DNA of 64,000 bases, taken from Liolophura sinensis (lineage: Eukaryota; Mollusca; Polyplacophora; Chitonida; Chitonidae). The stretch is taken from contig NC_088306.1 in NCBI RefSeq assembly GCF_032854445.1, positions 4,462,373-4,526,372 of the forward strand, given 5' to 3'. The position numbers and the translations under genes are program-made. Positions 4,051 through 62,596 of the stretch are shown in pieces (positions within the stretch are counted from its first letter, which is position 1; each line of letters begins with the position of its first letter). The notes under the pieces were generated by a model. That model did not search any database. It was given only the letters and a program-made list of their open reading frames with translations, and was not told the DNA's origin.

Positions 4051-4430
4051 TCCATGAGGAGGACAGTGGCTAATTTACATTCCTACTGGTATAAAGTACA
4101 ACATCCATGAGGAGGACGGTGGTTAAGTTGCTTTCCCATACGTATAAGGTACCACATCCACGAGGAGGACGGTGGAAAATTTATCTTCCTATAGTTATAA
4201 AGTACAACATCCACGAGAAGGACAGTGGCTAATTAACCTTCCTACATGTATAAAATTCAACATCCACGAGGAGGACGGTGACCAGTTTACCTTCCTACAG
4301 CTATAGAGTACAACATCCATGAGAAGGACGGTGGCTGATTTACCTTCCTATAGGTATAAAGTTCAACTTTTATAGGTATAAAGTTTTCCATCCTTCAGGT
4401 ATGCAGCACAACATTGACGATGACCAAATT

Positions 4431-18581: not shown

Positions 18582-18630
18582 CTGATTTTTTTTCAGGACG
18601 TAAATTGACTTAAAACGTACAAGGTGGATA

Positions 18631-20252: not shown

Positions 20253-20779
20253 GTGAGTATGGATCAATTAGCAGATTACGTTAAAACGACAAGACCTACG
20301 TGGCCGAGGTGGTTAGCGCGCCAGCGCGGCGCAATGACCCAGAAGCCTCTCACCAATGCAGTTGCTGTGAGTTCAAGTCCAGCTCATGCTGGTTTCCTCT
20401 CCTGTGCGAAAGCCTGTCGGTAATCTGTGGACTTGTGATTTCCCTCTGGCACTTGGTTGTCGTCCTCCACGATGCTGGCCCCCGTCATAAAAGTGAAATA
20501 TTCTCCAGTACGGCGTAAAATACCAATCTGATCGAGCATCAGCTATTTTTGTACTGTTTGTGAAAGAGAAGTGTACTTGAGTGTCACATGATCCTTTGCG
20601 AGAGGGTTTCTTATTGCAATAATGCCGCTTTATTAGAGTAAGAGAAACGTTTCTTTCTCCACAGGTTTTTCTTCGGTTTTTTCACGACCGATTGGAATGA
20701 TGCTTACGACAAAATGATGGCAGAGCGCTGTCCCGATCTTGCCAAACAACTGGGAACATCGCAGCCCCAAGCTGTGTAA
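18631..20779 (+). CDS. Mab-21/cGAS-like nucleotidyltransferase (probable cGAS-like receptor)
   Basis: Two coding exons (18631-20252 and 20665-20779) joined at cag|gtgagt and ccacag|g give 578 residues. The start ATG follows an acceptor (ttttcag|, 18597) and an in-frame TAA, so it is well supported. The nucleotidyltransferase core is clear: GS at 121-122, then E134-F-D136 in EEFDFMVEL, and a third acidic residue D245 in EVFCDISFCV, the arrangement of the cGAS/Mab-21 metal-binding triad. A Mab-21-type helical second half follows (about 300-395), including SYWLKQIITYM and LSDYFWPDL. I see no cGAS zinc-thumb His-Cys cluster. Family knowledge: proteins of this kind sense nucleic acid and make cyclic dinucleotides for STING signalling, and they are expanded in molluscs; others are catalytically dead Mab-21 proteins. 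The intact triad favours an active enzyme, but the ligand and product cannot be read from sequence. The coding exon is richer in G+C than its surroundings. Confidence 0.88.
20298..20530 (+). mobile_element. tRNA-derived SINE in the cGAS-like gene intron
   Basis: Plus-strand copy with head (gtggccgaggtggttagcgc), B-box-like gagttcaagtcc, body and 3' end (gtacggcgtaaaataccaat). Diverged, without an obvious target-site duplication or long tail. Confidence 0.8.
20665..20779 (+). CDS. cGAS-like gene, coding exon 2
   Basis: After tttctccacag| the frame continues with FFFGFFTTDWNDAYDKMMAE and ends at TAA 20777-20779. Phase matches exon 1. The acceptor has a strong pyrimidine tract. Confidence 0.8.
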
Positions 20780-21621: not shown

Positions 21622-24600
21622 CTGAAACCAAGACAGTTAATACACTATTCTAAATTTGTTTTCTTATGTATTTCATTGGCTCTAAATGCTGGACTCAGGT
21701 TTATGGGTTATGGAAACCAGAGTAAACCACCGACCTGCGACAGGTCCCTGACAAGCCTCCTGAGGCAAAGCAGCGAGAACTGGACTCGAGCACGCCACCT
21801 CATTGGTCAAGGTCCTAAGCAGCTCAGTAGCAGTGAGTGGGGTGTGGCTCAAGAATTGTGACATTTCTGTCCGTTATTGAGACTGGACCAACATTTCTGA
21901 AAGTCCAAAGGCAATAATTTCAACCATGAGACCACAACCCTTCCTCAATCCCCTTCACTGAAGAATACATCAGATATTTATTTATTTATTTACCAATTTG
22001 GGGTTTTACTCTATACTCAAGAACATGTATTCCTTTCGTATTCCTTAGTGTTTTAGTAATATCAGTTCTAATTATAAAACGAGACTCGTTCGCGTAAATT
22101 ATCCTTGAGAAATAAATAAACACTTGAATGCTAACAGAATTGCGTAAGCTATTACCCGTGCGTCCTTTACAAACCTGGAAGCTTGGTCCCCAAGGGACCC
22201 TATGAAGATGGCGTAAGAATTCACTTTGTCGTCGGCGGTAAGCAGGTCGCCGAATCGTCGCGGACTGATCCCATATCTGTCAAAGTTAGCGTCGCTTAGA
22301 ACAATGACAAAATGTTCGTCTGCTTCTTCCTTTCCCAGATCCGTTACAGCGTGTTTGGTGGCCTCTACTGTGTTGTCTCCGCTGAGGCAGAACTGCGAGT
22401 GGGCGTGCATCACCTAGAAAGGGTCAATAAAACAGAACAGGAGTTAAAATAGAAAAGAAATGTTTTCTCATCTCGACAAAAGCACTTTGTACACGATTGT
22501 TTTTTTTTTCACGAGTTTTCCTCTCCAGCCGTAAGTGGAAAGGTCCTCCAGCAACCTGCGGATGGTCGTGGGTTTCCCCGGGGTCTGTCAGGTTTCCTCT
22601 CACCATAATGCTGGCCGTCGCCGTATAAGTGACTTATTCTTAAGTATGACGTAAAATACCAAAGGAATAAATAAATAAATTTCACGAGTTCTCTGATGTA
22701 ACCCCTTCCATGGGCAGGTAAGAAGCGAGCTGAATGTGGAAGGAGTTACTTTCAAAGGCTTATGAACTGTAAAACAATCATGTGAAACGTGACTTGTGTG
22801 AAACCTATCCATACCTTTCCACTTACTATGACATTAGGGTGATCACAAAGAAAGTCAGTCAACTGCCTTGGTAAGCTTATCTATCGCCATACTCCAGAAT
22901 TTCTAACTTAACCTAGATGGTTGGGTGGAGGAAACCGTAGTTGACGTTCCAATATGCAAATCATATTGTTGAAAGATAAATGTCCTTTAACGAACGCTAG
23001 TGTCGTGGACCGCTTATATTGTGTCTCAGAAGGCCGCTTCTGAGTGGCAGCTATCTTGCTACATGCGCATTGACCTGCACCAGAGCGTTTTGACAATCTG
23101 ACACCAAGGGATGCACATTCTGCTCTTCACGCGTGAATACTACACCGAACCGTTAGCGGTAGATCGATCTCACGCTGGGCAAGTGCTCTTTTGGTGGACA
23201 TCTTCATGCACACGTATTTGGTGGTAGGCGCATTCAAGGCCCTAAGCTATACAGGTAGATTTAGGCTGCAAAATCGCTACAAAACTGTAGAGCAGGAAAA
23301 ATATTCGCTGGCTGGAAAACATGTAGAGCGTTCTATACTTGGCTATGCTACTTAGTTTTACGTATCAACGAACAGATCAAATGTGAAATTGTATTCGAAT
23401 AGTGAAATATGAAGATTCTTATGTCAACCTATCATGAAGACAGCGTATAAAGTGACATGAAATTGCCATATTAGATTCAGTCTCGCCGAATGAAGTCAAT
23501 AGGATCGATCCTGAACAAGAATGCCTTCTCTTATGAGAGATCCTCGAATTTGCTGTTCATAGAATGGTTGAAAAATGGAAGAAAACGGTCAGGTAAAGCA
23601 ACTAGAACCCATGAATACATAAGCTGTCTGAATCATTCTGAACAAATTCTTATCTTATGATTTCGTCGGTTAAGCGCGACCATTTGTCAACTATCACACT
23701 GTCGTCGCGGTTCTAGTTTTCATCTCCATACTGTAGTCTTTTGTATTAACTACTGACCTTCAGGATGTCCATTCTCTCTTTGTTATTTTTCGGCACCTTG
23801 TCCTGATGAACAAATTCTACCTTGTAGTCCTCACCCGAATGGCCGTACACGTCGTACTGAAATAACAAGGAACGGTCGTTAAACAACCAGGAACGCTAGG
23901 GAAATAACAAATTCTACTTTGTAGTCCTCACCCAAATGGCCGTACACGTCGTACTGAAATGACAAGGAACGGTCGTTAAACAACCAGGAACGCTAGGGAA
24001 ATAACAAATTCTACTTTGTAGTCCTCACCCGAATGGCCATACACGTCGTACTGAAATAACAAGGAACGGTCGTTAAACAACCAGGAACGCTAGGGAAATA
24101 ACAAATTCTACTTTGTAGTCCTCACCCAAATGGCCGTACACGTCGTACTGAAATGACAAGGAACGGTCGTTAAACAACCAGGAACGCTAGGGAAATAACA
24201 AATTCTACCTTGTAGTCCTCACCCGAATGGCCATACACGTCGTACTGAAATAACAAGGAACGGTCGTTAAACAACCAGGAACGCTAGGGAAATAACAAAT
24301 TCTACTTTGTAGTCCTCACCCAAATGGCCGCACACGTCGTACTGAAATAACAAGGAACGGTCGTTAAACAACCAGGAACGCTGGGGAAATAACAAGAAAC
24401 AATCCTCAAAGCACTGTTATAGAGTAATACAGAAAGGTCGTGAAAAAAACAAAAAACAGAAGCTATCGTGAAACAACCATGAATGGTCGCGAAAAAAGCA
24501 AGTTAGTGTCGTAACAACATAAAAAAGGACGGTCGTGAAATATCCACGAACAGGCATGAGCAATATAAGCAGGAATGGTTGTGATTATATTCAACTGTCA

Positions 24601-30600: not shown

Positions 30601-33600
30601 AGACGTGTATGAATTTTATTGGCTGACCATAGTTCTGCCTTCTTTGTTTTAGTCTCCAACTTGGAACGCCCCTCCATAGTTTACCAGACGTGTATGAATT
30701 TTATTGGCTGACCATAGTTCTGCCTTCTTTGTTTTAGTCTCCAACTTGGAACGCCAATCCATAGTTTACCAGACGTGTATGAATTTTATTGGCTGACCAT
30801 AGTTCTGCCTTCTTTGTTTTAGTCTCCAACTTGGAACACCCCTCCATAGTTTACCAGATGTGTATGAATTTTACTAGCTGACCATAGTTCTGCCTTCTTT
30901 GTTTTAGTCTCCAACTTGGAACGCCCCTCCATAGTTTACCAGACGTGTATGAATTTTATTGGCTGACCATAGTTCTGCCTTCTTTGTTTTAGTCTCCAAC
31001 TTGGAACGCCCCTCCATAGTTTACCAGACGTGTATGAATTTTAATGGCTGACCATAGTTCTGCCTTCTTTGTTTTAGTCTCCAACTTGGAACGCCCCTCC
31101 ATAGTTTACCAGACGTGTATGAATTTTATTGGGTGACCACAGTTCTGCCTTCTTTGTTTTAGTCTCCAACTTGGAACGCTCCTCCATAGTTTACCAGACG
31201 TGTATGAATTTTATTGGCTGACCATAGTTCTGCCTTCTTTGTTTTAGTCTCCAACTTGGAACGCCCCTCCATAGTTTACCAGACGTGTATGAATTTTATT
31301 GGCTGACCATAGTTCTGCCTTCTTTGTTTTAGTCTCCAACTTGGAACGCCCCTCCATAGTTTACCAGACGTGTATGAATTTTATTGGCTGACCATAGTTC
31401 TGCCTTCTTTGTTTTAGTCTCCAACTTGGAACGCCACTCCATAGTTTACCATACGCTTATGAATATAAAGCTTGAATCTTCATGCTTGTTTGTAAGCTCT
31501 ATCATGATTGTTTGCACAGGTATCTTTACCATAACAGAAACCAAACTATTAACTTGTTGTTCTAATGATGTACTGCAGTACATACATTCATACATAGCTG
31601 CTTTTTTCCTGTAATAATTATCCTCAGGCCGATGGAGGATAAAATGCCAAAATACCGAGTCTCAAAGAACATTCCCTTTTTGGAGTTTTCTACTTGTGTA
31701 TTACATAAAACTACCATGCAATACACTAAAACTCCTCAGACTTGAGCATATCGAACGAATGAACTATGTTCTGTTTTAATGTGTTCAGAAGAACTCAAAG
31801 AAAAAAACAAAGAAGGCTTCCCTTTTTGGAGTTTTCTACTTGTGTATTACATAAAACTACCATGCAATACACTAAAACTCCTCAGACTTGAGCATATCGA
31901 ACGAATGAACTATGTTCTGTTTTAATGTGTTCAGAAGAACTCAAAGAAGAAAACAAAGAAGGCTTCCCTTTTTGGAGTTTTCTACTTGTGTATCACATAA
32001 AACTACCGTGCAATACACTTAAACTCCTCAGACTTGAGGAACGAATGAACTATGTTCTGTTTTAATGTGTTCAGAAGAATTCAAGTGTAATCTTTAAAGC
32101 ATTAAGTCTAAGATAAGTACACAAGTGTTTCCCTGGAGACAAACAGCATCCCAGACAGCCTTGGGGTGGGAAAATTATGTTTCAAGTGCAACTGAATCTG
32201 ATTCTGAATGTTCATGTAGATCTGGTCAATGGTGGAAAAACCTCAGCCTTAGCTAAGACACAACATGTTTAGATCTAATCTGCATAAAATAACCATGATG
32301 ACCTTGAAAAATAGGTCAAGGTCACTGAAAATCAATAATGTTTTTCTCCCATATATGTGACGTAAGTTTCAACAGCTTAGCTCCTTGCCTTTAAAGATAT
32401 CATGTTCACAAGCATTTAACTTTAAGCAAAAATGTTCAACTTGAAAAAAATAGGTCAAGGTCACTGAAAATCAATAACGTTTTTCTCCCATATATGTGAC
32501 GTAAGTTTCAACAGCTTTGCTCCACGCATTCAAAAAATATCATGTTTACAAGCATTACATGTCATTTAACTTTAAGCAGAAATGTTCACCTTGAAAAAAA
32601 ATAAGTTCAGGTTACCGAAAATCAATAAGGTTCTTCTCCATGGCTTTGTACATCTATGAAACAAATTTGGTACATTTCACTTACAGCGTTGTAAAGATAC
32701 AGCATTTATAAGAAGGACAGGCCGCCTGCCCAGGTGTTCCTGCCTACATTAACAGGGTCACCGTGGTAACAGCTAAGGTACAATGTACCCCTTACCTATA
32801 ACCCGTGCCCAGGTGTTCCTCCCACATAGGGCACATTATCAGGGTTACCATGAGGTATACTGTACACCTTCCCTGTACCCCCTGCCCAGGTGTTCCCTCC
32901 CACATGGGGCACGTTATCAGTGTGACTATGATAACAGCTGAGGCACAATGTACACCTTACCTGTACCCCCAGCCCAGGTGTTCCCTCCCACATGGGGCAC
33001 ATTATCAGGGTCCTCTTTGCCGTGTTTTGGAGATGTTGGGTCTCGGCCTTTGCCGTCTTTATCTATGGTCATCTACAAATCAACAAAGATATTACTTACA
33101 AAACTTAAAGATGTCTTACTTACTTAAGATATTACATTTTCCTTGAAACTGTTATTGAAATGTCTCAATTTTATTCTTGATGGAAAAGGGCCCAAGAGAA
33201 CATCAAAAAGCCAACTTACAAAATTCTTGTAAAAAATTTGTAAAAAGGTACAACATTAGAAAAACCTGTCAATAAAAGCTTTTTACAAACATGTCATTAT
33301 TGTAAAACTGAAAATCCTCTTAGAATCCGCAATTATATCAATACAGACATGAAATCTATGTAAAGCTGTTTTTGTCACAGTATGGCTACAATACTGCACC
33401 CAGAGTGGCATTAAAGCAACTATAATAATAATACACCACGCTGTACTTGTAAATGCTTATAATTCCCTTGTCCAATCCACCCCAAACCCACAACACAAGC
33501 ACACCAAGCCCTACCTGTAAATGCTTATCCTCCCCTTGTCCAATCCAACCCAAACCCACAACACAAGCACACCAAGCTGTACCTGTAAATGCTTATCATC

Positions 33601-36154
33601 CCCTTGTCCAATCCACCCCAAACCCACAACACAAGCACACCAAGCTGTACCTGCAAATGCTTATCATCCCCTTGTCCAATCTACCCCAAACCCACAACAC
33701 AAGCACACCAAGCTGTACCTGTAAATGCTTATCATCCCCTTGTCCAATCCACCCCAAACCCACAACACAAGCACACCAAGCTGTACCTGCAAATGCTTAT
33801 CATCCCCATGTCCAATCCACCCCAAACCCACAACACAAGCACACCAAGCTGTACCTGCAAATGCTTATCATCCCCTTGTCCAATCCAACCCAAACCCACA
33901 ACACAAGCACACCAAGCTGTACCTGCAAATGCTTATCATCCCCTTGTCCAATCCAACCCAAACCCACAACACAAGCACACCAAGCTGTACCTGCAAATGC
34001 TTATCATCCCCTTGTCCAATCCAACCCAAACCCACAACACAAGCACACCAAGCTGTACCTGCAAATGCTTATCATCCCCTTGTCCAATCCAACCCAAACC
34101 CACAACACAAGCACACCAAGCTGTACCTGTAAATGCTTATCATCCCCTTGTCCAATCCACCCCAAACCCACAACACAAGCACACCAAGCTGTACCTGCAA
34201 ATGCTTATCATCCCCTTGTCCAATCCAACCCAAACCCACAACACAAGCACACCCAGCTGTACCTGTAAATGCTTATCATCCCCTTGTCCAATCCACCCCA
34301 AACCCACAGCACAAGCAAACCAAGCCAGACCTGTAAATGCTTATCATCCCCTTGTCCAATCATATTTCTCCACTGCTGAAGTGACCGGCCTAAGTTGACA
34401 AGACTGGTCTCCCAGAGTCGAACACACCCTCCTGCATCCACGGTAACCAGCCCGTCGTCACTCATTGGTGCCATGAAAATGTTGACGTCTGTTACGCTGA
34501 GTAACCAGGAAGTGTAAGGGGACTGACGTGATGCTCTGAAACGTTCATGAATAGAGTGACGTGGCAAGAGTGATGCCCTGAAACGTTCATGGATAGAGTG
34601 ACATGTGGCAAGCGTGACGCCCTGAAACGTTCATGAATAGAGTGACATGTGGCAAGTGTGACGCCCTGAATCGTTCATGGATAGAGTGACACATGGCAAG
34701 AGTGACGCCCTGAAACGTTCATGGATAGAGTGACATGTGGCAAGTGTGACGTCCTGAATCGTTCATGGATAGAGTGACACATGGCAAGAGTGACGCCCTG
34801 AAACGTTCATGGATAGAGTGACATGTGGCAAGTGTGATGCCCTGAATCGTTCATGGATAGAGTGACATGTGGCAAGCGTGACGCCCTGAAACGTTCATGG
34901 ATAGAGTGAAAAGTGGCAAGCCTGACGCCCTGAAACATTCATGGATAGAGTGAAATGTGGCAAGCGTGATGCCCTGAAACGTTCATGGATAGAGTGACAA
35001 GTGGCAAGCGTGACGCCCTGAAACGTTCATGGATAGAGTGACATGTAGCAAGTGTGACGCACTGAAATGTTCATGGATAGAGTGACAGGTGGCAAGAGTG
35101 ACGCCCTGAAATGTTCATGGATAGAGTGACATGTGGCAAAAGTGACACCCTGAAACGTTCATGGATAGAGTGAAATGTGGCAAGCGTGACACCCTGAAAC
35201 GTTCATGGATAGAGTGAAATGTGGCAAGCGTGACACCCTGAAACGTTCATGGATACAGTGACATGTGGCAAGCCTGATGCCTTGAAACGTTCATGGATAG
35301 AGTGACATGTGGCAAGCGTGACACCCTGAAACATTCATGGATAGAGCGACATGTGGCAAGCGTGACGCCCTGAAACGTTCACGGACAGAGTGAAATGTGG
35401 CAAGCGTGACGCCCTGAAACGTTCATGGATAGAGTGACATGTGGCAAATGTGACGCCCTGAAATGTTCATGGATAGAGTGACATGTGGCAAGCGTGATGC
35501 CCGGAAACGTTCATGGATAGAGTGAAATGTGGCAAGCGTGACGCCCTGAAACATTCATGGATAGAGTGACATGTGGCAAGAGTGATGCCCTGAAACGTTC
35601 ACGGATAGAGTGACATGTGGCAAGCGTGATGCCCGGAAACGTTCATGGATAGAGTGACATGTAGCAAGCCTGACGCCCTGAAATGTTCATGGATAGAGTG
35701 ACAGGTGGCAAGCGCTTTTTACTTTCGGTGTTTCAGTGCTGCTTTGTTACGCCATTATTTCAGTTCATGTCAGCCCCATTCAGCTAGACATTAAAGCCAT
35801 TTTTGTCAATGCAGAGCACTCTGGTTCCTACATAAGTATTTATTTATTTAATTATTTATTTATTTGTTCAACTGATGTTTTATGCCAGGATTAAGAACAG
35901 TTATACAACGGCAGCCAGCATTATGGTGGGAGGAACCCATGACCATCCGCAGGTTGCTAGCAGAACTTCCCCAAGTATGACTGGAGAGGAAGCTAGCATG
36001 AGCACTGGCCAGATGCTCCAACATCTTGCTGTGCTGGCAGGTTAACTATTCAGCCACTGAGACACCCTCATCCTCTCCATGAATATTGCAGCATTATTGC
36101 CATGCCAAAATCTCTGTCAAACTTTTATTGTCTGGATATAATCATTACATACAT

Positions 36155-36242
<88 letters not shown>

Positions 36243-54200: not shown

Positions 54201-57200
54201 ATTTACATCCAACTTTACCCATAGCTCCAAAAAAGTCGTTTCCGAGAAAAGGAAATCCTGGTCTGTTGGCCAGAACCATCATTCTGAAATCTGGGTGGGT
54301 AACGATGACATTCTCTGAGCTCGGCAAACCAGACGAGGCTGACAACAACAACCAAATAAACAAAACATCGACATTTTTTGTCAGACTAATGTTTCCATGT
54401 AAAAAAGGAAAACCCCTGGCAATAATTTAAATATTACGATGAATAACCAACCATCGAATACATTTAGTTTTGTTTGATTGCCACTAAACACCATACTTTA
54501 ATGAGAATGTCTGACTGTAATACATGTACATGGACACACAGAAAGCAGATTAAGAAGATCAATGTGTGTATGATGTGCACACCTTATAATACAAAAAACG
54601 CTGGCTCTAAAATAGCTTGAAAAATAGTATTGAAATAATGAGATAGCTAGATCTCGTGACAATTCTACAGCCTTCATAAACAATGACACTAAATACATCA
54701 GTTGACGCAATCACACAATCTCTTCTTTATTTTAATACCTGTAACAATTCTTCGTCCATCAGCCAGGTGCATTTCTCCACACTCCACCTGCATTTTCACA
54801 CAGTCATGCTAGGAGGTGTTTACTGTCTTACCTGTAGCAATTCAGCGTCCCTCAGCCAGGTGCATCTCTCCACACTCCACCTGTGTTTCCAGTCATGCTG
54901 GGAGGTGTTTACTGTCTTACCTGTAACAATTCTGCGTCCCTCAGCAAAGTGCATCTCTCCACACTCCACCTGTGTTTCCACAGTCATGCTGGGAGAAGTT
55001 TACTGTCTTACCTGTAACAATTCTTCGTCCCTCAGCCAGGTGAATCTCTCCACACTCCACTTGTGTTTTCACACAGTCATGCTGGGAGAAGTTTACTGTC
55101 TTACCTGTAACAATTCTGCGTCCATCAGCCAGGTGCATCTCTCCATACTACACTTGTGTTTTCACACAGTCATGCTGGGAGAAGTTTACTGTCTTACCTG
55201 TAACAATTCTTCGTCCATCAGCCAGGTGCATCTCTCCACACTCCACCTGTGTTTTCACATAGTTATGCTGGGAGAAGTTTACTGTCTTACCTGTAACAAT
55301 TCTCCGTCCAACAGCCAGGTGCATCTCTCCAGACTCCACCAGTATTTCCAGTCATGCTGGGAGAAGTTTACTGTCTTACCTGTAACAATTCTCCGTCCAT
55401 CAGCCAGGTGCATCTCTCCAGACTCCACCAGGGTTTTCAGTATACAGGTGACATGCGTGGAGGCCTTGTCTGCCTCATCCACTACCAGGATGTGACCCAT
55501 CTTCACCGCTCTTACCTGCACACAACAACAGCTTGAGTTACCCTACAAACTTCTACACATATTCCACTATTTCCATGGTATATATCTTGGCTTGCTAATT
55601 AGGGGGATGTTATCTGAAGTGGATAAGTTATCTGATTATTGCTATGAAAATCATATATAAGGTAAAACTAAAAATATAGTTTATTGGTAAAATCTGTTGA
55701 GGATTTAAACTATTCAAGCAAAGCTCGAGCAAGCCAGGTGACGTTCTCGTGTTAATAAAACCAGAAACAATTTTAGAATGCGTAAAGTCCATTTGAATAT
55801 CTTATTCCATGGTCATCCGACAACAATGGGGCCACTGACATCACATGAGGTTTTTGCTATTCAACATTACACTGCTACATTTTATCATTCAAAAAGCACA
55901 CACATATAGATCTATGAATGTATTTGCTGATTTGACCTTGAAAGTTTTTCAGATGTGAAGTAAGTGATACACTCTGAGTCATGACAGAACATGGTAGAAT
56001 CTGATATTTTAACACATTTTTACCCAGTTAGGAAAAAAACAACAATAAAATCACACCAATTTTCCTGTAGAGCCTTTAATGGTTTTTCATGTGATATATA
56101 CTTCATTTTAGAGTGGTCTTTGCCTTTTATAAACATCTCCATAAGCAGATGAAGAATTAGAGGCCAGGTCTATTCAATCTGATGTCATGTTGTATCATGA
56201 TATTTTACAAAACTTCACATTTCCTGGATTCCAACAACTTTCCATCATAAACTTGCTGACAGAGCCATTTTAATTTCTGTTTTAAGATAGTTACTTTGCT
56301 GATCAATATAAATGCCGAAAGATTGAAGTATAGTGAAATACAAGCAACCTTTGGATAGTTGAAGGTTTCCTCCGTGTTCTGACCGGTTTCCTCCCACCAT
56401 AGTGATGGGTGCTGTCATATATTAAGTTAAATATTTTTGAGTACCCGATAAAAACACCAAACAAACAAACAAATAAATCAATAAATAGTGAAATACATGC
56501 AGTCATGTGAATAATATCATAAAGCTTAATGTGGTACAGTGCTTGGTCTCCTGTAAGTCAGACCGAGCTAATGCCAGCAGAATTATCTCCCTTTGCGGGA
56601 ACATACCAACAGTGAGTCCTTGTATATGATGATCCCATCCTGTACAGTCAGCTGTAAGTCAGACCAAGCTAATACCAGTATGATTATCTCCCTTTACGGG
56701 AACATACCAACGGTGAGTTCTTGTATATGATGATCCCACCCTGTACAGTCGGCTATAAGTCAGACCGAGCTAATGCCAGTAGGATTATCTCCCTTTACGG
56801 GAACATACCAACGGTGAGTCCTCGTATGTGATGATCCCACCCTGTACAGTCGGCTGCAAGTCAGACCGAGCTAACGCCAGCAGGATTATCTCCCTTTACG
56901 GGAACATACCAAGGGTGAGTCCTCGTATATGATGATCCCATCCTGTACAGTCGGCTGTAAGTCGGACCAAGCTAACACCAGTAGAATTATCTCCCTTTAT
57001 GGGACATACCACCGTGAGTCCTCGTATATGATGATCCCACCCTGTACAGTCGGCTGTAAGTCAGACCGAGCTAACGCCAGTAGGATTATCTCCCTTTACG
57101 GAACATACCAACAGTGAGTTCTCGTATATGATGATCCCATCCTGTACAGTCGGCTGTAAGTCAGACCGAGCTAACGCCAGTAGGATTATCTCCCTTTACG

Positions 57201-60200
57201 GGATCATACCAACGGTGATTTCTCGTATATGATGATCCATCCTGTACAGTCGGCTGTAAGTCAGACCAAGCTAACGCCAGTAGGATTATCTCCCTTTACG
57301 GGAACATACCAACGGTGAGTTCTCGTATATGATGATCCATCCTGTACAGTCAGCTGTAAGTCAGACCGAGCTAACGCCAGTAGGATTATCTCCCTTTACG
57401 GGAACATACCAACCGTGAGTCCTCGTACATGATGATCCCACCCTGTACAGTCGACTGTAAGTCAGACCGAGCTAACGCCAGTAGGATTATCTCCCTTTAC
57501 GGGAACATACCAACGGTGAGTCCTCGTATATGATGATCCCATCCTGTACAGTCGGCTGTAAGTTAGGACCGAGCTAACGCAGTACGATTATCTCCCTTTA
57601 CGGGAACATACCAACGGTGAGTTCTCGTATATGATGATCCCATTCTGTACAGTCAGCTGTAAGTCAGACCAAGCTATCACCAGTAGGATTATCTCCCTTT
57701 ACGGCAAACATACCAACCGTGAGTTTTCGTATATGATGATCCCACCCTGTACAGTCGGTGTAAGTCAGACCGAGCTAATGCCAGCAGGATTATCTCCCTT
57801 TACGGAACATACCAACGGTGAGTCCTCGTATATGATGATCCCACCCTGTACAGTCGACTGTAAGTCAGACCGAGCTAACGCCAGTACGATTATCTCCCTT
57901 TACGGGAACATACCAACGGTGAGTTCTCGTATATGATGATCCCATTCTGTACAGTCAGCTGTAAGTCAGACCAAGCTAGCACCAGTAGGATTATCTCCCT
58001 TTACGGCAAACATACCAACCGTGAGTTTTCGTATATGATGATCCCACCCTGTACAGTCGGTGTAAGTCAGACCGAGCTAATGCCAGTAGGATTATCTCCC
58101 TTTACGGAACATACCAACGGTGAGTCCTCGTATATGATGATCCCACCCTGTACAGTTGGCTGTAAGTCAGACCGAGCTAATGCCAGTAGAATTATCTCCC
58201 TTTACGGGAACATACCAACGGTGAGTCCTCGTATATGATGATCCCACCCTGTACAGTCGGCTGTAAGTCAGACCGAGCTAATGCCAGTAGAATTATCTCC
58301 CTTTACGGGAACATACCAACGGTGAGTCCTCGTATATGATGATCCCATCCTGTACAGTCGGCTGTAAGGTAAGCGTCTGAACAGTTGTGTCTCTGAAAAG
58401 ACAAGACAAAAACTGATTTGAAAAGCTGATTGCTGTTTCAATTAATTTTCATCATATGATACTGTAAATTTACATATCACCAAAGCATACAAATGGATAA
58501 ATGTTAACACTGAAATGTCATGACTCAAGAATTACATGTGTAATGTATGAAATCCAGCACCTTGTAGTTACTTGTAAAAAATTTTCAGTGGACTTTCACA
58601 AGAAAAATATTTATAGTATTCAACCTTCACTGCAGTATTCTATTTATTATTTATATTTTGACAATGTCAGGTGTTTGAACAAGTCTAATCAATACTTTTC
58701 GCTGTAGGCCTTCACCGACTTGTGTATGTATGTGACAGCGTAAACGATGTCTTTAATGACGTTGTCTCTTGTTGCTGACATGCGAATGTTAAAGTTGACA
58801 AAACCTGAATTGTGACATCATCTTATCGCAATGACAAGCTTCCTTTCTGAAGTCATGGCATTTATGTGTGAAATGTCAAAATGTATAAACAAAAAAAAAG
58901 TGATATCTAACTGAGTGAAATATCACTTTTATCAATGAAGGAAATCCTGACATTTCATCACTGCATAAATAATAACATTCTTTAATAACATTTCCTGCAC
59001 ATTTGTTTTTGAATTGGTTTTATTTGTTGTCTTCCATGTGTAGTGGTTTTTTTTTGAGCATCGCATTACTAACAGTTGCCACAAAACCACTCCCGTATTC
59101 ACCACTGATTACTAGCAAATTGTTTATTTTAAAGTAGTCACCTAGATTATTTCAAAACCAGTCGATTTTTTATTCAAAAAGTGAAACTTTTTTTAAAATT
59201 GTTCAAGGTAATTTTTGTTTCCAAAAATGGCAATTAATTCAAATTAGTTTCTACAGTGCCTGTTTGGAGTTCGAAATAAATAAATTATATATTAACATTC
59301 CCACATACATGTACTGTATGTAGCGATATACTTTTTCTGTAATTATATTATAGGTGTTGATAAACTTCTTACTATCTGATGAAAGACATTCAATACTTAT
59401 ACATGTATTAGCAGTGGCTCAGTTTTAAACAATATTCCCTACTTCTTTTTTGGAACTGGTATCAAGTTCCATAATTACATCTCTGTGTCCCCATGACAAG
59501 CACACGCCTGTGACAATGCAATGATATTCCCGTGGGCAATTCAGCAAGTCAAGGAATCTGTAGATGATTTTGTTCTAGCCCACAACCTGATTGCCCAACA
59601 GCAGTAGATGTTCCTCTAACCAGATCTTTGTTCATTTCATTCTTGCCCACAACCTGATTGCCCACCAGCAGTAGATGCTCCACTAACTAGATCTTTGTTT
59701 ATTTCATTCCTGCCCACAACCTGATTGCCCACCAGCAGCAAATGTTCCCCTAACCAGATCTTTGTTTATTTCTTTCTTGCCCACAACCTGATTGCCCACC
59801 AGCAGTAGATGTTCCTCTAATCAGATCCTTGTTTATTTCATTCTTGCCCACAACCTGATTGCCACCAGCAGTAAATGTTCCTCTAACCAGATCTTTGTTT
59901 ATATCTTTCTTGCGCGCAACCTGATTGTCCAACAGCAGTAGATGTTCCTCTAATCAGATCCTTGTTTATTTCATTCCTGCCCACAACCTGATTGCCCACC
60001 AGCAGCAGATGTTCCTCTAACCAGATCTTTGTTTATTTCTTTCTTGCCCACAACCTGATTGCCCACCAGCAGTAGATGTTCCCCTAATCAGATCCTTGTT
60101 TATTTCATTCTTGCCCACAACCTGATTGCCCACCAGCAGTAAATGTTCCTCTAACCAGATCTTTGTTTATATCTCTCTTGCCCACAACCTGATTGCCCAA

Positions 60201-62596
60201 CAGCAGTAGATGTTCATCTAACCAGATCTTTGTTTATTTCATTCCTGCCCACAACCTGATTGCCCACCAGCAGTAGATGCTCCCCTAACCAGATCTTTGT
60301 TTATTTCATTCTTGCCCACAACCTGAATGCCCACCAGCAGCAGATGCTCCACTAACTAGATCTTTGTTTATTTCATTCCTGCCCACAACCTGACTGCCCA
60401 CCAGCAGTAGATGTTCCTCTAACCAGATCTTTGTTTATTTCATTCTTGCCCACAACCTGATTGCCCACCAGCAGTAGATGCTCCCCTAACCAGATCTTTG
60501 TTTATTTCATTCTTGCCCACAACCTGATTGCCCACCAGCAGCAGATGCTCCACTAACCAGATCTTTGTTTATTTCATTCCTGCCCACAACCTGATTGCCC
60601 ACCAGCAGTAGATGCTCCCCAATTTCCCCAATTTAGACCCACCTATATACAAGCACATACCTGTGAAGCTGTAGATACTCTCGAGGGCGATTCAGCAGAT
60701 ACAGGAATCTGTCGATGATTTTGTTCTTGCCCACGCCCTGATTACCCACCAGCAATAAATGCTCCCCCAGCAGATAGTCTTTGAGCATGTCCTCCATCAC
60801 AGATAAATGCTGAAAGTATTAAGAGAAAACGTCAGTTCAAGTCAATGAAATGATTGGACAAATTCCATTAATTTATAAATCAAAACATTCTTTCCAAATT
60901 TCACTTCGATAGAAATTATGGTATGTGACTTGAAATGCTAAATTATACTTCATTCCTAAAACATTTATTAAAGTAAGTAATTCAGACGTGTGATACAAAT
61001 AACACCAGCCTGGAAGTTAACAAAGCTTGTAACACAAAAAAAAATGATAACAAACCCAGAAAACTTGAGAGTAGCAAACTTGAAAAGAATACAAACTCAT
61101 AGATATGTAAATCCAAATGTTGGCACAGAAAGAATACAAACTCACAGACATGTAAAACCTAAATGTTAGCACAGAAAAAGATTACAAACTCACAAACATG
61201 TAAATCTAAATGTTGGCACAAACATTATACTCTCCATATTGCTGAACTGATCCCAAATAGAGGCACAAGTCATTACTAGCGATCAAGAAAACACAGGCTC
61301 TGTAAGAGGTACAAGTAATTTACTCTGTCCACACACACATATACATGTATTATAACATAAAGTCGGGAGACCTGGGGTCAAACCTGGGTCTGGCCATACC
61401 AAAGAATTTGAAAATGGTATTTGCTGCTACTTCGCATGGCACTGAGAGGTAAGAGCAAAGAAATAGGAATGGTTGGTTCAATGTAATCATAATGTGATTG
61501 GGTGGGGTGTCATGTCTGGTGTTTTTGGCACAATATTTCAGTGGCAGCAGCACTTTGGTGACATGGGCTCGTCCTTCCAGAAGACAACACAATATATGTA
61601 CACACACCTAATGACTCCTTGTCATCATATAACTGAAAAATTGTTAATTGTGATGTAAAACCCAATCATACATACATCTATATAACTAATATAACATACC
61701 TGTGGATTCTCATAGAAGAGAATGTCCGGCACCTTCATCCTGTTCTCTGGGTTATAAACGGACACCTCAGTGTTCCCGATTCTCAGAATGTTGTCTTTGA
61801 CTTCACCTGAAGTCAGATTGTGCTTAATGTTCAATTCTCAGATTGTTGTCTTTGACTTCACCTGACGTCAGACTGTACTGAATGTTCAATTCTCAGGATG
61901 TTGTCTTTGACTTCACCTGAAGTCAGACTGTACTGAATGTTCAATTCTGTCAGCAACCTGCAGATGGTCGTGGGTTTCCCCCAGGCTCTGCCCGGTTTCC
62001 TCCCACCATAATGCTGGCCGCCGTCATATAAGTGAAATATTCTTGAGTACGGCGTAAAACACCAATCAAATAAATAAATAAATAAATGTTCAATTCTCAG
62101 AATGTTGTCTTTGACTTCACCTGAAATCAGATTGTACTGAATGTTCAATTCTCAGAATGTTGTCTTTGACTTCACTTGAAGTCAGACTTTAGTGAATGTT
62201 CAATTCTCAGAATGTTGAATTTGACTTCACCTGAAGTCAGACTGTACTGAATGTTCAATTCTCAGAATGTTGTCTTTGACTTCAACTGAAGTCAGACTGT
62301 ACTGAATTCTGTGTACATTGTTGAAATTATACTTTTTTTGTAAAACCCTGAAATTGGCCAACCTAACCATCATAGTTTTGTCTTAAACATTGAATAAACT
62401 GGTGTATAAGTCACACTGAAAAGTGTTCTTTCATATGTGAAAGACGACCTTGGGGCTATAAACCAGGATATGCGTACGGTACTAACATGTCACAGATCGC
62501 TCCACTGCTTCCATGGTAACCTGTTGTTGGGGTTTAAGAATATCTGCTTCTTCCAGGGACTGCTCCAGAGCAGTGCGAGCCAATCGTGGTAAAAAC
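21513..62596 (-). CDS. VWA8: VWA8, C-terminal ~1218 residues (28 exons; 5' end outside window)
   Basis: Twenty-eight exons with AG/GT borders and continuous phase were placed from 62596 down to the TGA at 21513-21515. In the visible 1218 residues there is an AAA+ module with Walker A GNQGVGKN (about 94-101), Walker [12 protein letters not shown] (about 155-165) and a sensor-like MMVLANRPG; a long middle region; and a C-terminal von Willebrand A domain with MIDAS motif DVSGSM (from about 1033) and [13 protein letters not shown]. Segments such as [34 protein letters not shown] and [11 protein letters not shown] match vertebrate VWA8 as I remember it. Human VWA8 is about 1900 residues, so roughly the first 690 lie to the right of the window. 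Mammalian VWA8 is a mitochondrial ATPase; the targeting peptide would be in the missing part. The coding sequence occupies under 10% of 41 kb; introns are packed with minisatellites, ten of which repeat pieces of its own exons. Confidence 0.95.
21970..22032 (-). mobile_element. SINE 3'-end relic
   Basis: (tttat)n tail followed by a degraded 'ggttttactctatactcaag'. Located in the last VWA8 intron. Confidence 0.5.
22175..22413 (-). CDS. VWA8: VWA8 exon w27
   Basis: Follows ctttctag|g and ends at ccag|gtttgt. Encodes [40 protein letters not shown] and [12 protein letters not shown]. Reading through the donor gives a longer open frame, but splicing at 22175 restores the conserved C-terminus. Confidence 0.96.
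22518..22679 (+). mobile_element. 5'-truncated SINE with 11-bp TSD
   Basis: Begins inside the body (cctctccagccgtaagtgg), ends with (aaat)n, and is flanked by tttcacgagtt at 22507-22517 and 22680-22690. Confidence 0.9.
22691..23757. other. VWA8 intron without recognised elements
   Basis: No exon, array or clear SINE was seen. Short open frames here lack support. Confidence 0.5.
23758..23856 (-). CDS. VWA8: VWA8 exon w26
   Basis: Follows gttatttcag|t and ends at aag|gtcagt. Encodes [20 protein letters not shown] and [12 protein letters not shown]. Acceptor and first ~48 nt are repeated five times upstream (23857-24395). Confidence 0.95.
23857..24395 (-). repeat. 97-bp array repeating the acceptor of VWA8 exon w26
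   Basis: Five extra 97-bp copies. Each contains the intron end (gttatttcag or gtcatttcag), ~48 nt of exon ([15 protein letters not shown]), and then jumps back to intron sequence (ttatttccctagcgttcctg). Period measured from gaaata starts at 23998, 24095, 24192, 24289 and 24386. Confidence 0.95.
24685..24996 (-). mobile_element. tRNA-derived SINE with an internal expansion
   Basis: Full-length minus copy whose body contains an expanded run of gagctggagcac repeats (about 24852-24915), grown from the normal 'cagcatgagctggact' segment. The expansion makes open frames on both strands that are not genes. Confidence 0.85.
25251..25409 (-). CDS. VWA8: VWA8 exon w25 with the MIDAS motif
   Basis: Follows gaccttcag|a and ends at aag|gtttga. 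Encodes [20 protein letters not shown] (DxSxS metal-binding motif of the VWA domain) and [17 protein letters not shown]. Confidence 0.96.
25410..26700. other. VWA8 intron without recognised elements
   Basis: No exon seen. The segment at about 25780-25980 is relatively G+C rich and could be part of an interspersed repeat, but there is no second copy in the window. Confidence 0.4.
26715..26980. repeat. Minisatellite of 'ttcccctccacagatgataacg'
   Basis: About 11 copies of a core unit alternating with 'ctctataac' to give a mixed 22/31-bp periodicity. No exon sequence is included. Confidence 0.85.
27048..27173 (-). CDS. VWA8: VWA8 exon w24
   Basis: Follows tgttttaag|g and ends at gag|gtgaga. Encodes [20 protein letters not shown] and [18 protein letters not shown]. 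Confidence 0.95.
27692..27800 (-). CDS. VWA8: VWA8 exon w23
   Basis: Follows ttcaatag|a and ends at cag|gtcagc. Encodes [20 protein letters not shown] and LRVILDSLQ. Confidence 0.95.
27990..28100 (-). mobile_element. 5'-truncated SINE
   Basis: Tail, 'ctgacgccgcactcaagaat' and 'gcattatggttggaggaaac', then stops. Head absent. Confidence 0.75.
28270..28316 (-). CDS. VWA8: VWA8 exon w22 (47 nt)
   Basis: Follows cgtgcag|g and ends at agag|gtgagg. Encodes [15 protein letters not shown]. Very short, but phase and sequence fit both neighbours. Confidence 0.93.
29366..29475 (-). CDS. VWA8: VWA8 exon w21
   Basis: Follows cccactag|g and ends at gag|gtgagt. Encodes [20 protein letters not shown] and [10 protein letters not shown]. 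Confidence 0.95.
29607..29772 (+). mobile_element. 5'-truncated SINE
   Basis: Starts in the body (ctctccggtcataagcggg) and ends at caaataaata. A second, more degraded partial copy follows at 29800-29930. Confidence 0.75.
29800..29930 (+). mobile_element. Degraded SINE fragment
   Basis: Recognisable by 'catgctggtttcctctccgg' and 'tataagtgaaatattcttga'. Internal deletions. Confidence 0.6.
29995..30062 (-). mobile_element. Fragment of a third short repeat family
   Basis: 'gaatgaatgaatgattatgg' leading into 'cttaacgccacatcagcaat', a structure parallel to the repeats at 18402 and 39515 (tail, then ttaacg, then a cag...catat motif). Confidence 0.45.
30440..31455. repeat. 85-bp minisatellite, about 12 copies
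   Basis: Highly homogeneous 85-bp units starting 'ggctgaccatagttctgcct'. Most differ at only one to three positions, indicating recent expansion. No VWA8 exon sequence is included. Confidence 0.95.
31655..32095. repeat. ~148-bp repeat, three copies
   Basis: Three near-identical blocks beginning 'ccctttttggagttttctac'. The last has a short deletion. Confidence 0.9.
32305..32640. repeat. ~130-bp repeat, about three copies
   Basis: Blocks sharing 'aggtcaaggtcactgaaaat' and 'cccatatatgtgacgtaag'. The third copy is diverged. Confidence 0.8.
32735..32960 (-). repeat. Repeat copying the donor end of VWA8 exon w20
   Basis: Two to three copies, ~85-130 bp apart, of the last ~50 nt of exon w20 ([15 protein letters not shown]) plus donor-like sequence. 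Open frames on both strands here come from this duplication. Confidence 0.85.
32961..33072 (-). CDS. VWA8: VWA8 exon w20
   Basis: Follows gatttgtag|a and ends at acag|gtaagg. Encodes [20 protein letters not shown] followed by AGGT, a highly recognisable VWA8 segment. Its 3' part is repeated at 32735-32960. Confidence 0.95.
33445..34330 (-). repeat. 68-bp array repeating the donor of VWA8 exon w19
   Basis: Thirteen 68-bp units, each with ~28 nt of exon end (GQGDDKHLQ) followed by cag|gtacagctt or tacag|gtacag and ~40 nt of intron. Units are nearly identical. The unit leaves remainder two on division by three, which produces a set of long but spurious plus-strand open frames. Confidence 0.97.
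34331..34535 (-). CDS. VWA8: VWA8 exon w19, arrays on both sides
   Basis: Follows aacgtttcag|a and ends at cag|gtctgg, a weaker donor than the gtacag of most repeat copies. Encodes [38 protein letters not shown] and [16 protein letters not shown]. The acceptor is repeated at 34536-35715 and the donor at 33445-34330. Confidence 0.95.
34536..35715 (-). repeat. 44-bp array repeating the acceptor of VWA8 exon w19
   Basis: About 27 copies of a 44-bp unit (cctgaaacgttcatggatag on the plus strand). On the gene strand each reads ...gaacgtttcag|ggcatcac or ggcgtcac, the native acceptor with about 8 nt of exon. Confidence 0.95.
35838..36068 (-). mobile_element. tRNA-derived SINE, diverged
   Basis: Tail, 'atgttttatgccaggattaa', 'cagcattatggtgggagg' and a degraded head ending 'ccactgagacac'. 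Confidence 0.75.
36155..36262. repeat. (AT)n microsatellite
   Basis: Around 100 nt of almost pure TA repeats with a few tttata interruptions. The open frames of repeated Ile-Tyr are artefacts. Confidence 0.97.
36430..36511 (-). CDS. VWA8: VWA8 exon w18
   Basis: Follows gttgagcag|g and ends at ctgg|gtatgt. Encodes [20 protein letters not shown]. Confidence 0.93.
36710..36800 (-). mobile_element. SINE 3'-end relic
   Basis: 'agttttacactgcactcaag' and 'aatttcac' match the SINE 3' part. Strongly degraded. Confidence 0.4.
36845..37215. repeat. ~19-bp minisatellite 'gggaaaccaagcgcagatc'
   Basis: About 18 variable copies in the intron before exon w18 in plus-strand order. No exon sequence is recognised. 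Confidence 0.85.
37375..37579 (-). CDS. VWA8: VWA8 exon w17
   Basis: Follows gctttttag|c and ends at atg|gtgagg. Encodes [40 protein letters not shown] and [17 protein letters not shown]. Confidence 0.9.
37595..37900. repeat. 30-bp minisatellite
   Basis: About 10 copies of 'acagtagtgataacaagtat' plus cacaaaacag, immediately upstream (in gene orientation) of exon w17. Because 30 is a multiple of three it keeps frames open on both strands, giving spurious open frames. Confidence 0.93.
38395..39253 (-). repeat. ~93-bp array repeating the donor end of VWA8 exon w16
   Basis: About nine irregular copies of the last ~75 nt of exon w16 ([16 protein letters not shown]) with donor (cag|gtgaga/gtaaga types). 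Decoy donors lie near 38402, 38510, 38600, 38684, 38776, 38871, 38969, 39062 and 39158, ahead of the native site at 39253. More diverged than the other exon-derived arrays. Confidence 0.9.
39254..39405 (-). CDS. VWA8: VWA8 exon w16
   Basis: Follows tttttttgcag|a and ends at cag|gtgaga. Encodes [34 protein letters not shown] and VVIGLPDLQ. Its last ~75 nt plus donor are repeated about nine times downstream. Confidence 0.93.
39515..39810 (-). mobile_element. Short interspersed repeat, second family (tRNA-like head?)
   Basis: ~300-bp element from 'gtgagtacgagtgattgagg' through 'ttaacgtcgtacttaaca' to 'ggattgagcctggatctact'. On the minus strand the last part resembles a tRNA B box (ggctcaatcc). 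A fragment of the same family is at 18402-18500. Confidence 0.65.
39868..40018. repeat. 50-bp repeat, three copies, abutting the donor of exon w15
   Basis: Units begin 'gattctttcacaaacacaaa' at 39871, 39921 and 39971. Each ends in a copy of the intron start of w15 in which the donor GT reads AT, so no intact decoy donor is present. Confidence 0.9.
40019..40080 (-). CDS. VWA8: VWA8 exon w15
   Basis: Follows gtttttgcag|a and ends at gaa|gtgagt. Encodes [20 protein letters not shown]. Confidence 0.88.
40800..40925 (-). CDS. VWA8: VWA8 exon w14
   Basis: Follows gttttgtcag|g and ends at aa|gtaagt. Encodes [20 protein letters not shown] and [15 protein letters not shown]. Its acceptor and first half are repeated 13 times upstream (40926-42062); only the copy here carries the complete exon with a donor. 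Confidence 0.93.
40926..42062 (-). repeat. 86-bp array repeating the acceptor of VWA8 exon w14
   Basis: Thirteen extra 86-bp units, each with gttttgtcag|g plus the first ~65 nt of exon w14 ([15 protein letters not shown]). Acceptors recur about every 86 bp from 41011 to 42048. Two subfamilies are visible: cagctgg...ttggcagctg on the left and cagttgg...gagggctgg on the right. Confidence 0.97.
42252..42322 (-). CDS. VWA8: VWA8 exon w13
   Basis: Follows gtttgcag|c and ends at atgg|gtaagt. Encodes [20 protein letters not shown]. Confidence 0.9.
42582..42689 (-). CDS. VWA8: VWA8 exon w12
   Basis: Follows cgcttacag|a and ends at gag|gtactt. Encodes [20 protein letters not shown] and [13 protein letters not shown]. 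Conservation is lower here, but phase and borders agree. Confidence 0.88.
43327..43553 (-). CDS. VWA8: VWA8 exon w11
   Basis: Follows cctcaaacag|g and ends at gtg|gtaggt. Encodes [38 protein letters not shown] and VVLHEEV. It is the longest open exon of this part of the gene and G+C rich. Confidence 0.95.
43765..44250. repeat. Short degenerate repeat of 'atggtaaattacaggta'
   Basis: About 30 copies of a 16-20-bp unit with variants acaggtacatgta, ggaagta and acaagta. Intronic, no exon sequence. Confidence 0.9.
44717..44855 (-). CDS. VWA8: VWA8 exon w10
   Basis: Follows gtttctag|g and ends at aaag|gtgaga. Encodes [20 protein letters not shown] and [16 protein letters not shown]. Confidence 0.9.
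44925..45935. repeat. Minisatellite of 'gagaactgtttccac', interrupted by a SINE
   Basis: Many copies of 'gtgagaactgtttccactca' alternating with 'cttccacctacatgtatgtg', at 44925-45313 and 45600-45935, split by the SINE at 45327-45599. The unit resembles exon w10 sequence at 44820-44845 (gtgagaactgttctactgtc), so an exonic seed is possible but not certain. Confidence 0.85.
45327..45599 (+). mobile_element. tRNA-derived SINE, full length, 13-bp TSD
   Basis: Complete element: head 'gcctccgtggctcagttgg' (tRNA A-box-like), 'gtgagttcaagtccagctc' (B-box-like), conserved body, 3' end 'gtacggtgtaaaataccaat' and an (aaat)n tail. Flanked by tttttcacctaca at 45314-45326 and 45600-45612. It inserted into the surrounding minisatellite. 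Confidence 0.95.
45957..46132 (+). mobile_element. SINE copy lacking its 3' part
   Basis: Well-preserved head with A box tggctcagtcgg (45968-45979) and B box agttcaagtcc (46037-46047). The element stops at 'gtgggtttcccccgagct' without tail. A short agttaca flanks both sides (45950-45956, 46133-46139), which is weak evidence of a duplication. Confidence 0.85.
46197..46311 (-). CDS. VWA8: VWA8 exon w9
   Basis: Follows tcatgcag|a and ends at aag|gtaatg. Encodes [20 protein letters not shown] and [13 protein letters not shown]. Confidence 0.9.
47215..47755. repeat. ~63-bp minisatellite rich in 'gtgggcagtggagg'
   Basis: Compound units made of 'gaaactgtgtgggcagtgg', 'gaaattgtgtggaaagtgg' and 'agaaatggtgtgggcagtgg'. 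Because the sub-units are 21 nt, all frames stay open, giving several 130-150-codon artefacts on both strands. Confidence 0.95.
47770..49063. other. VWA8 intron without recognised elements
   Basis: AT-rich, no exon or array seen. Confidence 0.45.
49076..49224 (-). mobile_element. 5'-truncated SINE with 12-bp TSD
   Basis: Tail and body only, ending at 'cttcccacttacagcc'. Flanked by agcatgtacata at 49064-49075 and 49225-49236. Confidence 0.9.
49995..50246 (+). mobile_element. tRNA-derived SINE, diverged
   Basis: Degraded head (ggttggcatactagcaggg), 'cagcaacctgcggatggtcg', 3' end and (aaat)n tail. Confidence 0.8.
50405..50565. repeat. ~56-bp repeat next to exon w8
   Basis: Three to four copies of a unit containing 'ccctgcagatcagacagagg' and cactaactccctccctccct. 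Ends just before the donor of exon w8 and does not copy its exon. Confidence 0.85.
50571..50722 (-). CDS. VWA8: VWA8 exon w8
   Basis: Follows attctccag|a and ends at aga|gtaagg. Encodes [20 protein letters not shown] and [17 protein letters not shown]. Confidence 0.95.
51136..51180. repeat. Perfect 17-bp inverted repeat (hairpin)
   Basis: ggaccttgaaacgaact (51136-51152) and its exact reverse complement (51164-51180), separated by 11 nt. Intronic. Confidence 0.9.
51570..51795 (+). mobile_element. tRNA-derived SINE, old copy
   Basis: Diverged head and body ('gtgaattcaaatccagctca', 'ccataatgctggccaccatc') and 3' end 'aacggtgtcaaaacacccat'. No clear TSD. Confidence 0.7.
51854..52059 (-). CDS. 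VWA8: VWA8 exon w7
   Basis: Follows gtctacag|g and ends at gag|gtgagg. Encodes [20 protein letters not shown] and [16 protein letters not shown]. Confidence 0.95.
52485..53850. repeat. ~53-bp minisatellite, about 25 copies
   Basis: Units contain 'ccattcagccaccaaagtgt' and ggctatggacaggctggacacttcac. No VWA8 exon sequence. The right end runs into the hairpin at 53830-53868. It has the same length as, but no similarity to, the giant array at the left of the window. Confidence 0.95.
53830..53868. repeat. Perfect 17-bp hairpin closing the 53-bp array
   Basis: cttcacatactaaccat (53830-53846) and its exact complement (53852-53868) with a 5-nt loop. The left arm is the array's own unit, so the last unit is followed by an inverted fragment of itself. 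Confidence 0.92.
53925..54076 (+). mobile_element. 5'-truncated SINE
   Basis: Body from 'catatgtgggaaggtctgcc' to 'aaaacaccaatcaaataaat'. Head missing or unrecognisable. Confidence 0.75.
54219..54338 (-). CDS. VWA8: VWA8 exon w6
   Basis: Follows gttgtcag|c and ends at atgg|gtaaag. Encodes [19 protein letters not shown] and [11 protein letters not shown] (sensor region of the AAA module). Confidence 0.95.
54725..55379 (-). repeat. ~92-bp array repeating the donor end of VWA8 exon w5
   Basis: Seven extra copies, each with the exon end ([14 protein letters not shown]), the donor (acag|gtaagacagtaaa) and ~45 nt of intron. Decoy donors lie near 54735, 54828, 54916, 55009, 55100, 55194 and 55288. 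Copies keep intact GTAAGA donors except the farthest. Confidence 0.96.
55380..55515 (-). CDS. VWA8: VWA8 exon w5 with Walker B
   Basis: Follows gtgtgcag|g and ends at acag|gtaaga. Encodes [11 protein letters not shown] and [20 protein letters not shown]. Its 3' end and donor are repeated at 54725-55379. Confidence 0.95.
56343..56485 (+). mobile_element. 5'-truncated SINE with 12-bp TSD
   Basis: Body from 'agcaacctttggatagttga' to a mixed (aaac)n/(aaat)n tail. Flanked by tagtgaaataca at 56331-56342 and 56486-56497. Confidence 0.88.
56540..58316 (-). repeat. ~100-bp array repeating the donor end of VWA8 exon w4
   Basis: About 17 extra copies of the last ~45 nt of exon w4 ([16 protein letters not shown]) with donor (ttg|gtatgttcc) and ~55 nt of intron. 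Copy-specific point changes and one-base deletions are present, but the donor GTATGT is kept in nearly all units. Confidence 0.96.
58317..58392 (-). CDS. VWA8: VWA8 exon w4
   Basis: Follows cttttcag|a and ends at ttg|gtatgt. Encodes [20 protein letters not shown] and EDSPL. Its 3' half and donor are repeated about 17 times downstream. Confidence 0.95.
58393..59495. other. VWA8 intron without recognised elements
   Basis: AT-rich; no exon or repeat seen before the Walker A-derived array. Confidence 0.45.
59500..60620 (-). repeat. ~67-bp array built from the Walker A segment of exon w3
   Basis: About 16 copies of a unit whose gene-strand sequence resembles the exon w3 region coding [13 protein letters not shown] (gcccacaacctgattgccca on the plus strand). 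The outermost copy (59520-59625) is longer and also matches the exon part for NKIIDRFL, which looks like an initial partial exon duplication. None has an open frame with both splice sites. Confidence 0.92.
60661..60809 (-). CDS. VWA8: VWA8 exon w3 with Walker A
   Basis: Follows tactttcag|c and ends at cag|gtatgt. Encodes [19 protein letters not shown] and the P-loop GNQGVGKNK. An internal segment is amplified in the downstream intron (59500-60620). Confidence 0.95.
61700..61806 (-). CDS. VWA8: VWA8 exon w2
   Basis: Follows gacttcag|g and ends at cag|gtatgt. Encodes [20 protein letters not shown] and then [13 protein letters not shown]. Its acceptor and first ~30 nt are repeated in the array at 61807-62310. 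Confidence 0.9.
61807..62310 (-). repeat. ~57-bp array repeating the acceptor of VWA8 exon w2, split by a SINE
   Basis: About seven copies with acceptor (tgacttcag|gtgaagtc), ~30 nt of exon (EVKDNILRI) and ~25 nt of intron (gaacattcagtacagtctga on the gene strand). Confidence 0.93.
61949..62084 (+). mobile_element. 5'-truncated SINE inserted inside the exon w2 array
   Basis: Body from 'gtcagcaacctgcagatggt' to an (aaat)n tail. Flanked by aatgttcaattct at 61936-61948 and 62085-62097, which is part of the tandem unit itself. Young in appearance: nearly consensus sequence. Confidence 0.93.
62487..62596 (-). CDS. VWA8: VWA8 exon w1 (first in window)
   Basis: Follows ccatgtag|g and ends at gac at|gttagt. 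Encodes [20 protein letters not shown]. The Cys codon shared with the next exon gives the expected CEV junction. Confidence 0.8.

Follow-up and report, generated by a model that had tools for sequence, protein, structure and literature searches.

Tandem arrays built from exon pieces at splice junctions of the chiton VWA8 gene, and their likeness to the mirages of lancelets

What produces tandem arrays that lie in the introns of a gene and are made from pieces of that gene's own exons? The question arises from VWA8 in a chiton (Liolophura), most of which lies on the minus strand inside the window analysed here, a stretch of 64,000 nucleotides at positions 4,462,373-4,526,372 of its contig, in an assembly of 609,464,459 bases in 632 contigs. 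A first-pass annotation of the window described ten such arrays and suggested either a mechanism that favours splice junctions or some form of selection. The arrays themselves, the placement of arrays in this and other genes, and the state of the splice sites within the copies all bear on these suggestions.

VWA8 and its exon-derived arrays

The gene was followed for 60 kb further upstream of the window, and 43 exons are listed between 21.5 and 81 kb, a list that is probably incomplete and approximate at some ends. Their joined translations gave three AAA_5 matches in Pfam (E 5.1e-26, 1.5e-26 and 3.8e-14) and a weak VWA_2 match below the cut-off (E 1.2e-4). This combination fits VWA8, the name used here for the gene. 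A useful relative of VWA8 was sought in the PDB and none was found, so exons were called by a scorer of codon usage and splice matrices trained on the window, picked by hand in view of what is known of VWA8, with continuity of frame and Pfam matches as checks. The first dynamic-programming gene model was dropped because it mistook array copies for exons. With phases worked out by hand, the reading frame is continuous over all of the junctions that bear arrays. For four exons the start is approximate and is not preceded by AG (54337, 46259, 29436 and 21622), and the ends are rough for three others that were placed by motif (64133, 80866 and 80105); all seven were kept in the VWA8 edge-density counts given below. 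Incorrect ends, since put right, were used for w5 (55401) and w19 (34496) in the exon self-BLAST, and for w5 (55401) in the placement permutation. The ten arrays are as follows, in window coordinates.

61779..62307, minus strand: w2 acceptor array, 55-bp unit with 28 nt of exon (exon w2, 61700-61806)
59496..60618, minus strand: w3 array, 67-bp unit from the interior of the exon (exon w3, 60661-60809)
56551..58368, minus strand: w4 donor array, 101-bp unit in 18 copies with 52 nt of exon (exon w4, 58317-58392)
54736..55439, minus strand: w5 donor array, 93-bp unit with 60 nt of exon (exon w5, 55380-55515)
40857..42065, minus strand: w14 acceptor array, 86-bp unit in 14 copies with 69 nt of exon (exon w14, 40800-40925)
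38398..39333, minus strand: w16 donor array, unit of about 95 bp with 80 nt of exon by BLAST, or 53 nt if the Tandem Repeats Finder limit of 39306 is used (exon w16, 39254-39405)
34527..35714, minus strand: w19 acceptor array, 44-bp unit in 27 copies with 9 nt of exon, found by reading
33433..34361, minus strand: w19 donor array, 68-bp unit in 13.7 copies with 31 nt of exon (exon w19, 34331-34535)
32767..33011, minus strand: w20 donor array, 77-bp unit in 3.2 copies with 51 nt of exon (exon w20, 32961-33072)
23809..24395, minus strand: w26 acceptor array, 97-bp unit in 6 copies with 48 nt of exon (exon w26, 23758-23856)

Tandem Repeats Finder (TRF) places the arrays where the first-pass annotation had put them, apart from the w20 array, which it misses on the plus strand and finds on the minus strand. 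Considered as sequence, the arrays are more than chance. For the self-BLAST, 39 exons with 100-bp flanks were compared with their surroundings, and plus-strand matches no more than 6 kb away were accepted at E <=0.01 with an exon overlap of at least 8 nt. Nine of the 39 have local copies (w2, w3, w4, w5, w14, w16, w19, w20 and w26), and in eight of these nine the copies cross the native junction, the exception being w3, where only 1 of 16 copies does so. Together with the acceptor array of w19, this bears out the claim of nine arrays across a native donor or acceptor: five donors and four acceptors are straddled, each by an array containing 9-80 nt of exon, with unit lengths of 44-101 bp, copy numbers of about 3-27 and a greatest array length of 1,818 bp. 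At the 15 VWA8 exons upstream of w1, searched by BLAST for 12 and by TRF only for three, no junction array was found.

The tenth array was said to repeat an internal part of w3, and its unit is indeed internal, but its outermost copy (59496-59614) matches native positions 60649-60765, which take in the 3' part of the exon and continue past the donor, the GT of the donor being GC in the copy. The founding duplication at w3 therefore probably crossed the donor. The w2 array is divided into two blocks (61779-61948 and 62085-62307) by a SINE-like insertion, and so predates it. The insertion itself occupies 61949-62084, and the window shows similar copies at other places.

Several neighbouring features were recorded along the way. 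An array with a 50-bp unit at 39871-40017 begins 2 bp past the w15 donor and copies no exon. Two long arrays at 383-4367 and 11714-16614, about 7 kb apart and in opposite orientation, seem by eye to share one 53-bp unit. On the plus strand, a long open frame at 18604-20253 encodes a Mab-21_C domain (E 5.2e-12) and seems to be joined by splicing to a short 3' exon at about 20665-20779. Upstream of VWA8, in the extended coordinates, a long minus-strand open frame at 83506-84306, which spans the end of L010 and the start of L011, has a translation that by eye resembles a protein kinase.

Placement of arrays in VWA8 and in other genes

The proportion of VWA8 arrays that touch an exon had been put at about half and is in fact lower, 9 of 25 TRF arrays between 21500 and 62600 and 9 of 32 between 21500 and 80900. 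Against uniform seeding an excess nevertheless holds for this gene: with one unit per array and the gene collapsed, 8 of 33 plus-strand TRF arrays fall on junctions where permutation gives 2.9 (P 0.007). VWA8 is the discovery gene, however, picked because of the pattern, and the permutation tests the very gene that raised the question.

Other genes of the chiton were reached through Pfam family searches, from the best-scoring 30 of 81 myosin head matches and 30 of 50 CCT chaperonin matches. The 60 loci merged to 41 stretches (164 kb), L045 being dropped for want of a scorable exon, and at most 59 of the 121 exons in these genes rest on a Pfam match, the remainder being predicted. A CCT gene (L062) has a donor array in which exon makes up 97 nt of the 109-bp unit, a second CCT gene has two donor arrays (L051 and L059), and a myosin gene (L032) has a donor array of the same build. 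Two further donor arrays stand at exons that are merely predicted, and an acceptor array at L060 overlaps its exon by about one base. Three kinesin stretches (12.5 kb, from 15 of 132 Pfam matches and chosen for compactness) contained no arrays. Junction arrays are thus not special to VWA8, occurring also in CCT and myosin genes.

Placement was compared across genes by walking outward from each of 322 junctions and counting the array edges met per base in three zones, the junction (-60 to -5), the first 200 bp of intron (near) and the intron beyond (far). By this definition the L062 array (edge at -96) is not counted at its junction, and the acceptor array of L060, with its edge at 0, is scored as near; the L060 donor was taken as 1627 rather than 1911, and the pooled counts leave out the three kinesin stretches and L075. 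In the other genes the junction zone has 5 edges in 12.96 kb (0.39/kb), the near zone 21 in 43.0 kb (0.49/kb) and the far zone 13 in 68.6 kb (0.19/kb). The corresponding counts in VWA8 are 8 in 4.28 kb (1.87/kb), 12 in 13.7 kb (0.88/kb) and 18 in 17.1 kb (1.05/kb), and the pooled densities are 0.75, 0.58 and 0.36 per kb.

Junction and near zones do not separate (P 0.49 pooled, 0.82 in other genes, 0.11 in VWA8). Three other array definitions give 0.12-0.28, 0.58-1.0 and 0.048-0.11 respectively, the value of 0.048 for VWA8 arising at a TRF score of 200 and 3 copies. Pooled junctions do exceed deep intron (P 0.04, and 0.017 to 0.0055 under the other three definitions, lowest for strict arrays), and the near zone exceeds the far zone in other genes (P 0.007) but not in VWA8 (P 0.71), the pool giving P 0.057. 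What stands of the suggested junction-favouring mechanism is thus the excess over uniform seeding in VWA8 and a pooled contrast with deep intron; in the 41 stretches of other genes, and in the pool, the junction is no denser than the 200 bp of intron beside it. Since near-intron and junction densities are much alike, the arrays can be explained without a mechanism that targets the junction.

A division into donor and acceptor sides, made after the data had been seen, adds a further pattern. On the donor side of other genes there are 16 edges in the 27.2 kb from the junction to +200 bp and 3 in the 31.7 kb beyond (post hoc P 0.0009), as against 10 in 28.7 kb and 10 in 36.9 kb on the acceptor side (P 0.65); pooled with VWA8, near against far gives P 0.001 for donors and 1.0 for acceptors. 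Compared directly, the two sides differ with P 0.24 in other genes and 0.055 in the pool. Arrays in other genes, on this post hoc division, crowd near exons on the donor side, and preference for the junction itself is not demonstrated.

The copies as splice sites and the origin of the arrays

If selection maintained the copies as splice sites, their splice dinucleotides should be over-kept, and in VWA8 they outlast other dinucleotides, being kept in 81 of 85 aligned copies against 66.5 expected (P 0.008; three further controls gave P 0.025, P 0.044 and 0 of 20,000 draws). The tiling aligned 85 copies, where TRF copy numbers would lead one to expect roughly 97. Four arrays of other genes, by contrast, keep the dinucleotides in 27 of 35 copies against 26.1 expected (P 0.48), 35 of 36 aligned copies having been retained and L032 tiled at 75 bp (TRF unit 25). 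Divergence of VWA8 copies from their native unit ranges from about 2 to 26 percent. Of 13 arrays, 7 have the exon-derived part of the unit better preserved than the intron-derived part and 6 have it less well preserved, a split that gives no consistent indication of coding constraint on the copies. By a generic matrix, the median copy scores at least as high as the native splice site in 8 of 9 junction arrays; the w20 copies score below it, on one intact copy. The first-pass suggestion of selection therefore survives as a possible maintenance of copies in VWA8 and finds no replicated sign elsewhere.

The VWA8 arrays are probably mirage-type minisatellites, that is, tolerated duplications that grew in place with no junction-aimed mechanism. 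Such an array would start when a short piece of about 40-110 bp, close to an exon edge or spanning it, was duplicated in tandem, and slippage or unequal exchange would then lengthen and homogenise it where it stands. A duplication wholly inside an exon would be expected to harm the protein. One that crosses a junction would be tolerated because a single outermost copy keeps the exon whole and its native splice site in place, and the other copies become part of the intron. The layout agrees, the native site lying in the first copy at donors and in the last copy at acceptors, and this outermost site is presumably the one that is used. Several findings pull the other way: junction density in VWA8 is twice that of nearby intron and its permutation departs from chance, pooled junctions exceed deep intron, splice dinucleotides in VWA8 are over-kept, and uniform seeding leaves the donor-side crowding unexplained.

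That crowding is the main ground for supposing that the 5' end of an intron favours duplication, for example through trouble in replication or transcription at the passage from exon to intron, so that new arrays originate at donors or immediately behind them. We think this rather unlikely: the donor-side excess comes from the post hoc split, the direct comparison of the two sides is indistinct, the three compact kinesin stretches have no array at all, and the same picture could come from counter-selection of arrays that interfere with the branch point and pyrimidine tract, or from dilution of mid-intron sequence by mobile elements. A junction that is itself the preferred seed, through a mechanism linked to splicing or to sequence, would account for the VWA8 permutation and for the pooled excess over deep intron, which holds under four array definitions, but it is improbable given that junctions are no denser than adjacent intron in other genes or in the pool, that the permutation comes from the discovery gene, and that 0 of 15 upstream exons are affected. 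The over-kept dinucleotides and the high copy scores are what arrays kept by selection as reserve or decoy splice sites would display, a reading made very improbable by the four arrays of other genes, by the indifferent conservation of the exon part, and by the lengths of several units, which are not divisible by 3. An assembly error, with copies invented or wrongly counted, is the least credible source. Assemblies tend to fail in repeats of 1-2 kb, and coverage is only 14X according to the accessible part of the Liolophura japonica assembly paper, but the HiFi reads average 8,347 bp in the same paper, longer than the longest junction array, and the copies diverge from the native unit.

Comparison with mirages and related repeats

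The first-pass annotation knew of no named system of this kind, and yet the mirages of lancelets (amphioxus) have the same structure. As far as the accessible parts of the papers cited here go, mirages were named for Adh3 and later reported in globin genes, with tandem units of 10-72 bp in Adh3 and 150-160 bp in globins (PMC3087553), and PGBD5 is another mirage gene, in a paper that names troponin C (TnC) and Adh as further cases (PMC3902484). In both animals the unit joins part of an exon, a splice site and part of an intron, donors and acceptors alike are affected, and AG or GT is present in many copies. The VWA8 units lie within the overall range of 10-160 bp, six of the nine falling between the two published ranges, and w3 joins the boundary class by its outermost copy only. 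Judged by their sequence, then, the chiton arrays have the structure that characterises mirages. They differ in belonging to a mollusc, in numbering nine in one gene and in reaching 14-27 copies in some cases. Length differences between haplotypes and normal splicing, the latter suggested to the authors by Adh3 data and RT-PCR (PMC3087553), are reported from lancelets, as is somatic instability, whereas the chiton arrays are known from a single assembly.

Human genes have internal tandem repeats of minisatellite scale at exon-intron boundaries, which alter exon/intron structure in recent paralogs with transcripts to document it (PMC2812944); for the chiton the evidence is DNA sequence only. 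Tandem genomic duplication carrying splice signals has been proposed as a route to intron gain (PMC4974935), discussed also for mirages (PMC3087553). The chiton data give no example of a new intron; those of VWA8 lie between exons that read on in frame. An abalone gene has an intronic 27-bp minisatellite that, in the accessible text, is not described as crossing a junction. No molluscan or chiton report of junction-crossing arrays was among the matches listed by searches that left most subscription journals outside, and searches on 'mirage' returned no mollusc paper. As far as these searches reach, the VWA8 arrays represent a structure already named in another phylum and new as a molluscan occurrence.

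With junction-spanning minisatellites in VWA8 and also in CCT and myosin genes, the chiton shows that such arrays are not confined to lancelets, and its chromosome-scale genome would allow their origins to be counted. Gene models and RNA-seq have been published for L. japonica (PMC11068029). The donor-side crowding, if real, would point to where in genes these repeats are born. It is conceivable, though we hold it unlikely, that in chitons and lancelets alike tandem duplications arise time and again at the donor end of introns, which would give rise to minisatellites at exon edges, to longer introns and to ready splice sites for intron gain.
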